From Kineosporiaceae bacterium SCSIO 59966 (GTDB lineage Bacteria > Actinomycetota > Actinomycetes > Actinomycetales > SCSIO-59966), in NCBI GenBank assembly GCA_020881835.1, contig CP052876.1, positions 620,001 to 684,000 on the forward strand: a stretch of 64,000 bases of DNA, in the 5' to 3' direction. A program made the position numbers and the translations under genes. Shown here in pieces: positions 59,789 to 62,330 of this stretch; the first letter of the stretch is position 1, and every line of letters starts with the position of its first letter. The notes under the pieces were generated by a model. It ran no database searches and had not been told where the DNA came from. It saw only the letters and a program-made list of their open reading frames with translations.

Positions 59789-59845
59789 GCTCCGGTTCCT
59801 GGGTCCCTACGTAGGGCTCCAGCCGGTCTCTCCACCGCCCCTTTC

Positions 59846-59905
59846 GTGATCATGCAATCCCGCCACCCGCCCGACCCGCTTCGTGATCATGCAATTCCGG
59901 CACCC
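59846..59905 (+). repeat. Module A x2 at the end of the importer operon
   Basis: A perfect copy lies at 59846-59868 and a variant with two substitutions at 59883-59905. They start 57 bp after the regulator stop and point along its transcription. They are the first copies after a 28.8-kb stretch without any. Confidence 0.9.
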
Positions 59906-59965: not shown

Positions 59966-59981
59966 TCGAACACTAGTTCGA
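59966..59981. promoter_or_regulatory. LexA (SOS) box
   Basis: TCGAACACTAGTTCGA matches the actinobacterial SOS-box consensus TCGAAC-N4-GTTCGA exactly, 21 bp before the GTG of the DUF222/HNH gene. A GGGAGG ribosome-binding site follows. Confidence 0.88.
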
Positions 59982-60002
59982 GTGCGGTGAAGGGAGGGTG
60001 TC

Positions 60003-62330
60003 GTGGCCGGGTCGTCGGTGGTGGAGGACCGGTTCGCCGCGGTCCTGGCGGCGGCGGCGGCACTGTCCCTGCTCGACCCGCACGCCTACCGGCACGTCGA
60101 CCCGGATGCCCACCCGGACGGCGGTGCGGATGCCGACGTGGGCTCCGCCCCGTCGGGGGGTGAGTCGGCGGCCCCCGAGGAGCCAGGCCAGGTACCGCGC
60201 CGGCTGCCGGATGGCCGGGTCGTGCCGGCGGAGGTCGGACTGGCCGCGCCGGGTGTGCCGGACGGCGGGTGGGGCCGGTATCTCGCCGGTCTGCGGCCCG
60301 GCCCGGAGCTGGATGCGGCGCTGGCCCACCTGGACCCGGCGGACCTGGATGACGGGGCGGTGCTGGAGCTGGTCGCGGCGACCGAGCGGGCGATCTCGGG
60401 CCTGCGGGCCCGCCAGGCGGCTGCGATCGTGGAGTTCACCCGCCGCGGACCTGACGGGGTCCGGTGCTTCTCCACCGAGGAACTCGCCGCCCGGATGCGG
60501 TGGACGGCGTGGACGGCGTCGGCCCGGGTCAGCGAGGCCCGCACCTTGTCCACCCGCCTGCCCAGCACCCTGGACGCACTGGCCTGCGGTGACCTCGACG
60601 ACCCGCGGGCCCGGATCGTGGCCGCCGCCGCGGCCGAGCTCGACGAGCCAGTCGCCCTGGCTCTGGACGAGGCCCTGTCGGTCGACCCCACCCCCACCGA
60701 TCCCACCGACGATGCGGACGGCGAGGACGGCGAGGGGCTGGGTGAGGACCCGGCCGGTGCCAGTCGGCCGGCCTACGGTGCCGCGGTCCTGACCACCGCG
60801 GAGCTGCGGGCCCGGATCGCCGCGGAGGTGGCCACGATCGACGCCGCGGCGGCGGCCCGGCGGGCCGAGGCGGGTCGGCGGCGGCGGCGGGTGGGCGTCA
60901 CCCCCCTGGACGACGGGATGGCCCGGCTGGTCGCCGAGGGCCCCGCCGTCGACGTGCTGACCATGTTCCGGGGCCTGTCCCACGCCGCGGAGAAGATCCG
61001 CGACGAGCAGGCCGCTGCGGCTGGTGAGGTCCGCGGTATCGACGCGATCCGTTTCGACCTGCTGACCGACTGGGCCCGCCAGCTGCTGGAGGACGCCCCA
61101 CCGCCGGCGCCCTCAGGGCAGTGGCGCCCTCAGCTGCTGGTGACCTGCACCCTGGCGGCGCTGCTCGGGCTGCGGGAGGACCCCGCGTACCTGGACGGCT
61201 ACGGCCCGCTGCCCGCCGCGGTGGTCCGGCGGATCGCCGAGGACGCCACCTTGCGCCGGCTGCTCACTGACCCGTTCACTGGCACCGTCATCGGCCTGGA
61301 CGGCCACACCTACCCCGGCCTCCCACCAGATGACAGCCCACCCGATGACGGTCCACCCGGCGACAACCCGCCCGACAACGGCCCGCCCGACGACGGCCCA
61401 CACAGCGGCAATCCATCCGGTGACAGTCCGCCCGATGAGGGTGCCCCTGGTGAGGACCCACCCCGTGAGGGTGCCCCGGACGGCGGTGCCCCGCGTGGCG
61501 GCGCCCGCGCAGTGACCCGAGAGGGTGACCTCTCGCCTGCGGCGGGTGAGTCGTTCATCGGCAAACCCCGCGAGCGGGACTGCGCCATGGCCAGGTCCCC
61601 TCTCGGCGCCGTCGGACGCCGCTGGCCCGGTGCCGGGGTTGCCCCCGTGCACCCGGACCCGGGTCGGTACCGGCCGCGGCGCACCATCGCCACTCTCATC
61701 CAGCTGCGGGACCGAACCTGCCGGGCCCCCGGTTGCCGCCGCCGCGGCGCCCTGTGCGACATCGACCACATCGTGCGGTGGCCGCAGGGCCCCACCTGCC
61801 CGTGCAACCTGCAGCTCCTGTGCCGCCGCCACCACCGCCTCAAGCACGAGTCCGCCGCGGCGGTCTGGCGCACCGCCACCGGGTGGACCACCTGGCGGAT
61901 GCCGACCGGGCACGTCCTGCGCCGGGCCCCCGAACCCGCCATCCCCCGAGTCGCCGGACACCCGACCGACCAGACGCTCGACCTGTGCGGCGACCCCGGC
62001 CGCCTGTCGCAGTACCTGGCCCGGGTTGACACCGCGGCCGACGAGTTCCGCCGCCTGGCCCGAGCCTGCGGGTTCCCCGTCGACCCCGACCCCGCCCCCG
62101 AGCACGACGCCGGGCAGCCCGAGCACGACGCCGGGCAGCCCGAGCCCGCCGCCGGGCAGCCCGATGACGACACCGACCAGCCCGAGCCCGCCACGCTGTC
62201 CGAGTGGGTTGCCCGCCGCGTGGCCCGCCTCAAGCCCGGCGAGTCCTGGGACTTCAACCCTGAACCGCCACGCCGGTTCACCCGGATCGATCCCGACCCG
62301 CGCGAGTACACCGGGCCGCCGCCGTTCTGA
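60003..62330 (+). CDS. DUF222/HNH endonuclease-domain protein (13E12 type)
   Basis: A 775-residue protein. The DUF222 region (about residues 85-430) includes AVLELVAATERAISGLRARQAAAIVEFTRR and LLVTCTLAALLGLREDPAYLDGYGPLPAAVVRRIAEDATLRRLLTDPFTG. A Pro/Asp/Gly linker with irregular PPDDG repeats separates it from a C-terminal HNH nuclease: CRAPGCRRRGALCDIDHIVRW...CNLQLLCRRHHRLKH, with zinc cysteines and the D-H...N...H triad. PEHDAGQ repeats follow. A perfect SOS box upstream indicates DNA-damage induction, as known for mycobacterial 13E12 genes. The cellular role of the family is unresolved. Confidence 0.9.
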   Translation: MAGSSVVEDRFAAVLAAAAALSLLDPHAYRHVDPDAHPDGGADADVGSAPSGGESAAPEEPGQVPRRLPDGRVVPAEVGLAAPGVPDGGWGRYLAGLRPGPELDAALAHLDPADLDDGAVLELVAATERAISGLRARQAAAIVEFTRRGPDGVRCFSTEELAARMRWTAWTASARVSEARTLSTRLPSTLDALACGDLDDPRARIVAAAAAELDEPVALALDEALSVDPTPTDPTDDADGEDGEGLGEDPAGASRPAYGAAVLTTAELRARIAAEVATIDAAAAARRAEAGRRRRRVGVTPLDDGMARLVAEGPAVDVLTMFRGLSHAAEKIRDEQAAAAGEVRGIDAIRFDLLTDWARQLLEDAPPPAPSGQWRPQLLVTCTLAALLGLREDPAYLDGYGPLPAAVVRRIAEDATLRRLLTDPFTGTVIGLDGHTYPGLPPDDSPPDDGPPGDNPPDNGPPDDGPHSGNPSGDSPPDEGAPGEDPPREGAPDGGAPRGGARAVTREGDLSPAAGESFIGKPRERDCAMARSPLGAVGRRWPGAGVAPVHPDPGRYRPRRTIATLIQLRDRTCRAPGCRRRGALCDIDHIVRWPQGPTCPCNLQLLCRRHHRLKHESAAAVWRTATGWTTWRMPTGHVLRRAPEPAIPRVAGHPTDQTLDLCGDPGRLSQYLARVDTAADEFRRLARACGFPVDPDPAPEHDAGQPEHDAGQPEPAAGQPDDDTDQPEPATLSEWVARRVARLKPGESWDFNPEPPRRFTRIDPDPREYTGPPPF

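Follow-up and report, generated by a model that had tools for sequence, protein, structure and literature searches.

The DUF222/HNH gene analyzed here is preceded by a perfect SOS box and encodes a nuclease-like protein whose extreme C-terminus, a Pro-Pro-Phe tip, resembles that of SSB. We describe the box, the domain anatomy of the protein, and the recurrence and specificity of the tip among relatives. On this basis we give about an even chance to the idea that a widespread, SOS-controlled actinobacterial HNH family mimics the SSB tip, joining or hijacking the circle of SSB-binding proteins, possibly with site-specific, ParB-type DNA binding. The preliminary description of this DNA made no mention of the tip, which we judge to be the most informative feature of the gene.

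Architecture of the DUF222/HNH gene

The following features were assigned. Positions are those of the window, meaning the whole 64,000-nt stretch of DNA that was analyzed.

59846–59858, forward strand: repeat core GTGATCATGCAAT, first of two, probably outside the system
59883–59895, forward strand: repeat core GTGATCATGCAAT, second copy, 37 nt further
59966–59981, no strand assigned: perfect SOS box TCGAACACTAGTTCGA, 0 mismatches, 21 nt from the GTG start at 60003
59991–59998, forward strand: ribosome-binding-site-like AGGGAGGG, 4 nt upstream of the GTG start
60003–62330, forward strand: DUF222/HNH gene, 775 aa, GTG start (Pfam DUF222, E 3.2e-16)
60267–61298, forward strand: DUF222 domain, folded and mostly helical, residues about 89–432 (AlphaFold models)
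60459–60635, forward strand: ParB-type helix-turn-helix-like stretch, residues 153–211 (profile match; structural likeness over about 127–284)
61320–61664, forward strand: DUF222–HNH linker, Pro/Asp/Gly-rich, residues 440–554 (pLDDT <50 over most of it)
61668–61937, forward strand: HNH domain, residues 556–645 (motif residues, AlphaFold, structural likeness)
61938–62312, forward strand: tail from HNH domain to tip, residues 646–770 (partly low confidence; predicted helices 665–688 and 732–742)
62313–62327, forward strand: SSB-like C-terminal tip GPPPF, followed by TGA (translation, PPF-TGA scan)

The Pfam DUF222 score of the protein is 60 bits against a cut-off of 24.4, which places it in the family. 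The HNH-motif residues C573, C578, D588, H589, N602, C607 and H611 are all present and are invariant in 30 aligned members, and HNH families of PHROGs are matched at E 7.8e-5 and weaker. With these residues intact, the HNH domain would be expected to nick or cut DNA. Structurally, the HNH part is similar to those of McrA-type and other HNH endonucleases (EcoKMcrA, Z 7.0 and rmsd 5.5; ScoMcrA, Z 5.7; the Geobacter HNH nickase, Z 5.5); unlike the McrA-type enzymes, the window protein has no recognized modified-DNA-binding domain. In the AlphaFold model of the whole protein, the DUF222 and HNH domains are ordered, the linker has low confidence and the tail is of mixed confidence. The last 15 residues have pLDDT <50, as expected of a flexible tip.

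The genome is a single contig of 3,095,448 bases with six DUF222 genes according to Pfam, two of which give two Pfam rows each. One of the six (L004/L010) is split over two reading frames, at 2831457–2832376. The idea of a known anti-phage defense system found no support: three proteins gave no match in PADLOC-DB, a library of systems described by 2023, at E values up to 0.1, and the same three gave none in NCBIfam. One DUF222 member matches Pfam F420_ligase with E 4.4e-4.

SOS box and LexA context

A site search of the window confirmed the earlier observation of a perfect TCGAAC-N4-GTTCGA box 21 nt ahead of the DUF222/HNH start. At up to two mismatches the window holds 8 such sites, compared with 2.30 (sd 1.74) in shuffled sequences, where 1 of 100 shuffles gave 8; the seven sites other than 59966–59981 each have two mismatches. 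Across the whole genome there are two perfect sites and none in the backwards control, and at up to one mismatch there are 29 sites and 7 in the control. The second perfect site (G000:C1:1011580) is located about 110 nt upstream of a DUF6504 gene, beyond which lies a PHP-domain gene (both assigned by Pfam) that we read as DnaE2-like. The lexA gene itself, recognized by Pfam LexA_DNA_bind and Peptidase_S24, has three one-mismatch boxes 285–480 nt before its DNA-binding domain; two of the three directly abut (L273, G000:C1:1810861-1811072). SOS-like sites near 2167534 and 2170647 are inside or beside long frames that by eye appear to be other genes. Among the six DUF222 genes of this genome, boxes with at most one mismatch are found at two, the window gene and the split gene (box at 2831324), and a third gene, L005, has a box with two mismatches.

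Relatives of the gene were identified in 93 of the 149 genomes searched within the same order. The order-level set consists of 60 stretches, the first rows in table order that reached the HNH part (several per genome), plus loci L003, L004, L006 and L007 of the same genome as the window, giving 64 family frames after 7 of 71, secondary and overlapping, were dropped. The window gene and L005, which falls under the score limit, are outside this set; one of its frames lacks the 3′ end and four lack the 5′ end. Boxes were sought from 250 nt ahead of each open frame to 900 nt inside it, a wide span chosen because many open frames extend upstream of the actual start codon. A box with at most one mismatch is present in 25 of 60 family frames, 56 of which come from other genomes, and seven of the boxes are perfect. 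Sixty permuted palindromes, by comparison, averaged 0.03 frames per pattern, and 4 of 166 neighboring frames (open, non-overlapping frames 150 aa or longer, which are not proven genes) had a box.

A class-wide set was assembled from 40 genomes outside the order, one match each, hand-picked in table order; the matches for G367 and G181 are not the best rows, and the tip of G262 was known before picking. Boxes with at most one mismatch occur in 11 of 36 of these frames (permuted control, 0.07), or in 9 of 34 without the two hand-added loci, G262 and G181. Beyond the class, where 14 loci were readable and six others unreadable, 7 of 13 loci have a box, a count that stands without a permuted control and includes the box of L151 deep inside the frame. 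For 37 boxes, counting that of the window, the start codon that was chosen lies 8 to 343 nt away, with a median of 97.

The two marks of a LexA regulon member, TCGAACN4GTTCGA ahead of the gene and LexA encoded in the genome, are thus both found for the window gene. The preliminary description had called the gene probably damage-induced, and the sequence supports this well through the perfect box, its good spacing, the boxes that the LexA gene itself has and the strong recurrence of boxes before relatives. Judged from sequence, the window gene is very probably under LexA control.

Regulation of this kind has precedent. The mycobacterial 13E12 (REP13E12) proteins, with LexA-regulated members such as Rv0515, Rv1702c, Rv3074 and Rv3776, are likewise HNH nuclease-like and encoded several times per genome, and passages of PMC5005354, PMC4181829 and PMC7911356 describe the same box, TCGAACN4GTTCGA, and damage induction of the mycobacterial genes. 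Because LexA control of 13E12 genes is documented for M. tuberculosis in passages of PMC5005354 and PMC4181829, the SOS box of the window gene is a new example of known regulation. The response can be strong: moxifloxacin induces the M. tuberculosis HNH genes Rv3074 and Rv3776 29- and 22-fold, respectively, according to a passage of PMC7911356.

Two functions that might follow from SOS control of a nuclease need to be weighed here. In the first, strong induction after damage would lead the nuclease to degrade the chromosome and kill the cell. A section of PMC9416677 reports that the M. smegmatis HNH nuclease MSMEG_1275 cuts DNA and that its over-expression kills, but only one of the five HNH proteins over-expressed in that work greatly inhibited growth, and the word DUF222 is absent from the main text. 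We regard such a suicide function as quite improbable.

The second possibility draws on phage P1 Ref, a RecA-directed nuclease. The window protein might likewise act at RecA filaments, with its C-terminal tip playing a secondary role. SOS control together with an HNH domain would suit this arrangement, and PMC7911356 notes in a passage on Rv3074 and Rv3776 that some such endonucleases elsewhere cleave solely RecA-bound DNA. The tip, however, points toward the partners of SSB rather than toward RecA filaments, and we consider RecA-directed cleavage very unlikely.

An SSB-like tip at the C-terminus

The window protein ends in REYTGPPPF, and therefore in P-F. SSB is bound through its own C-terminal tip by RecO, PriA, RecQ- or RecG-type helicases and others. 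Among actinobacterial SSBs, represented by the best-scoring SSB from 30 of the 37 genomes searched (second SSB genes not included), all 30 have a PPF ending preceded by acidic residues, as in YDEPPF, SDEPPF, SEEPPF and NDDPPF. The corresponding E. coli SSB-Ct peptide is DDDIPF, for which a passage of PMC11981726 reports that changing the last Phe abolishes DinG binding, and part of PMC7913777 describes binding of the last nine residues of SSB by RecO.

The window tip and the SSB-Ct have in common a P-F at the extreme C-terminus, which in the family mostly follows acidic residues, and a tail of low predicted order. They differ in that the window tip is carried by a nuclease-like protein with no recognized OB fold, and in that the acidic part is often weaker in the family. 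The window tip is itself less acidic than the SSB tip, having one Glu in the four residues before its prolines. In the same genome, the main SSB carries the ending YSEEPPF, while PPF-TGA is missing from the end of a second SSB-like gene (2126522). The better mimic of the SSB tip is the paralogue L003, ending in ADEPEEPPF (EPEEPPF at the tip); L003 has no SOS box, the best site at its locus having three mismatches.

The ends of relatives include FPDEPPF, PDDEPPF, LDDIPPF, EDDPPPF, DDDPPPF, EPEEPPF, PDVIPF and similar sequences, some of which (FPDEPPF, PDDEPPF, LDDIPPF and PDVIPF) are close to the SSB ends that were read or to E. coli DDDIPF. A P-F/Y/W ending is found in 32 of the 63 readable order-level family frames (31 of 59 without the loci of the window's genome), with P-F in 26, and in none of 203 neighboring frames. 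Within the last 60 residues of the order-level family frames, the density of P-F/Y/W dipeptides is 0.5% (19 of 3,717). Class-wide, 13 of 40 frames have such an ending (11 of 38 without G262 and G181), compared with 0 of 117 neighboring frames; outside the class there is one tip (PLPF) in 14 readable loci. The tip is thus missing from about half of the frames at order level and from about two thirds of those at class level. Among the four residues before the prolines, one or more are acidic in 42 of 45 tips and two or more in 23 of 45. The tip is PPY or PPW in one clade (L049, L050, L057, L062, L077), and the SSBs from two genomes of this clade (L121, L122) retain PPF.

Specificity of the ending can be judged from a gene-independent scan, in which a DNA pattern for Pro-Pro-Phe-TGA was sought on both strands; the pattern detects TTC-TGA ends alone. 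The window's genome has three such sites, belonging to SSB, the window gene and a DUF222/HNH gene at 2231806, with two in the backwards control. Ten other genomes, hand-picked among those known to carry the DUF222/HNH family, have 53 sites, with 10 in the control. When compared by blastp with our own family and SSB sets, 27 of the 53 end DUF222/HNH frames, nine end SSB and 17 match neither; 14 of the 17 fall in frames no longer than 67 aa, the others in frames of 101, 108 and 358 aa. The longest of these (L218, in G006) ends in ALPWPPF and is the sole PPF-TGA frame above 110 aa matching neither DUF222 nor SSB. From these genome scans, DUF222/HNH is nearly the sole family besides SSB found with a PPF-TGA end.

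These observations bear on whether the C-terminal PPF might be unrelated to the partners of SSB, serving for example in protein stability. Docking is a prediction, and among the tips there are some with little acidity or with a final Y or W, as such a role would allow. Against it, PPF-TGA ends in sizeable frames nearly all belong to SSB or DUF222/HNH, and some family ends are nearly identical to SSB ends. We therefore view an unrelated role as rather improbable, and favor docking onto SSB-binding proteins as the function of the tip.

A tree of 95 members, built from columns ahead of the tail, indicates how the tip has evolved. The tip label requires 15 changes on the 95-row tree, compared with a shuffled mean of 31.6, and the starred branches force at least 8. 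From these counts, the tip appears to be partly inherited and to have been repeatedly gained or lost. An independent link between box and tip was also considered and is not supported. By plain counts, the two are associated in the order-level set (odds ratio 3.6, Fisher p 0.033), but independent pairs on the tree, which allow for relatedness, do not support the link (median p 0.625). The plain counts at class level are 6/5/5/20.

In the open-access literature searched, no paper attributing an SSB-like tail or a ParB-like domain to DUF222/13E12 proteins was found, and the SSB-like tip on DUF222/HNH proteins is apparently new. The same holds for the two features that set the window protein apart from the mycobacterial 13E12 proteins, with which it was compared through the literature alone: neither an SSB-like tip nor a ParB-like DUF222 domain was found described for them.

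Similarity of DUF222 to ParB-type domains

The DUF222 domain alone, predicted by AlphaFold with 56 sequences, has a mean pLDDT of 89.5 and a pTM of 0.77. When this model was realigned to the best PDB chains from Foldseek, ranks 1–12 were all ParB, Noc, Spo0J or KorB, with Z of 6.9–5.5 and rmsd of 2.3–3.4 over 94–103 residues. With the whole model, a Noc chain came first (Z 7.3, rmsd 2.8 over 101 residues). The Z values for ParB likeness are thus at most 7.3, and by the tool's own warning values below 8 may reflect a common arrangement alone. Foldseek itself gave no match at E ≤0.001 for either model, the ParB-like chains having E of 0.48 or worse.

Profile comparisons point to the same region. 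Against 21 ParB helix-turn-helix domains, a profile–profile alignment of residues 153–211 scored 28.7 (P 7.3e-4, hhalign probability 26%), and the best of 100 column-shuffled controls scored 20.1. Sequence searches against solved structures gave no strong match: Spo0J was best in one (E 0.19), and in another the sigma factor SigJ (E 0.014) ranked above Spo0J (E 0.22). Pfam HTH_ParB is reported for one of 56 DUF222 members (E 5.5e-4), and no ParB family is reported by Pfam for the window protein.

The ParB likeness consists of a shared helical arrangement of about 100 residues, in a region that also gives a weak profile match; both are under the usual thresholds. Unlike ParB, Noc, Spo0J and KorB, DUF222 is fused to HNH. 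Taken together, there is moderate evidence from sequence and predicted structure that DUF222 resembles a ParB-type DNA-binding domain.

Mobility and the adjacent repeats

A DNA-binding-like domain fused to HNH is also what might be expected of a selfish, homing-like gene, whose site-specific nuclease would cut empty sites at a time when recombination enzymes are plentiful and whose tip would recruit recombination proteins for self-copying. Several diverged copies are present in many genomes, single genomes (G348 and G395, for example) having as many as about 30 DUF222/HNH matches, and one copy in the window's genome is split over two frames. We also count in favor of homing a passage of PMC5005354 that cites Davis et al. 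On the other hand, the DUF222 domain of one member had no match in 72,556 plasmid records, and a search of 50,697 phage records with another member gave a single partial match, covering 11% of the query. Carriage by plasmids or phages was rejected on these results, and we hold homing to be unlikely, though the least improbable of the alternatives to docking that are considered here.

The preliminary description speculated that the nuclease could take part in the movement of the neighboring repeat family, a proposal considered here as movement or maintenance of the GTGATCATGCAAT repeats within its own genome. The gene does adjoin the repeat family, as had been noted, with two cores at 59846 and 59883, 37 nt apart, just upstream. 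The second DUF222/HNH gene with a box, the split gene (G000:C1:2831324-2832577; L004, L010), likewise has two repeats 37 nt apart upstream, together with its one-mismatch SOS box and split frames. GTGATCATGCAAT is the core of 24 window sites and has 344 genomic copies, 173 on the forward and 171 on the reverse strand, which often form runs spaced by 37 nt or approximately 130 nt (in the window, 318–31048 and 59843–59895). Pairs at 37 nt, however, occur at many other sites of the genome, and a repeat is near two of the six DUF222 genes, while flanks of about 1.5 kb fetched for the other four loci contain no copy. No copy of the core was found in 972,580 bases of other genomes (177 loci, some overlapping), the majority of which surround DUF222 genes. 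The repeat counts in this and other genomes led us to reject a role in repeat movement, which we consider extremely improbable.

Proposed mechanism and implications

We think it somewhat probable that the window protein is a damage-induced nuclease predicted to dock, via its SSB-like tip, onto SSB-binding repair proteins. Given the box, DNA damage would lead to cleavage of LexA and production of the DUF222/HNH protein. The DUF222 domain, with its resemblance to a ParB-type helix-turn-helix, may then bind DNA, while the Pro-Pro-Phe tip would most likely dock in the pocket by which the partners of SSB bind SSB. Docking could act in either of two directions, bringing the nuclease to gaps and stalled forks or bringing repair proteins to its cut. 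The gene may serve repair, or it may be a selfish gene that copies itself when recombination is active.

If correct, this model would describe a damage-induced, possibly site-specific nuclease that is plugged into replication restart and recombination, with the SSB docking signal presented by a nuclease rather than by SSB. The functions of Rv3074 and Rv3776 are called unknown in a passage of PMC7911356, and the strong damage induction of HNH genes of this kind in M. tuberculosis lends relevance to the proposed mimicry. Mimicry of the SSB tip would supply a reason for LexA control of such genes.
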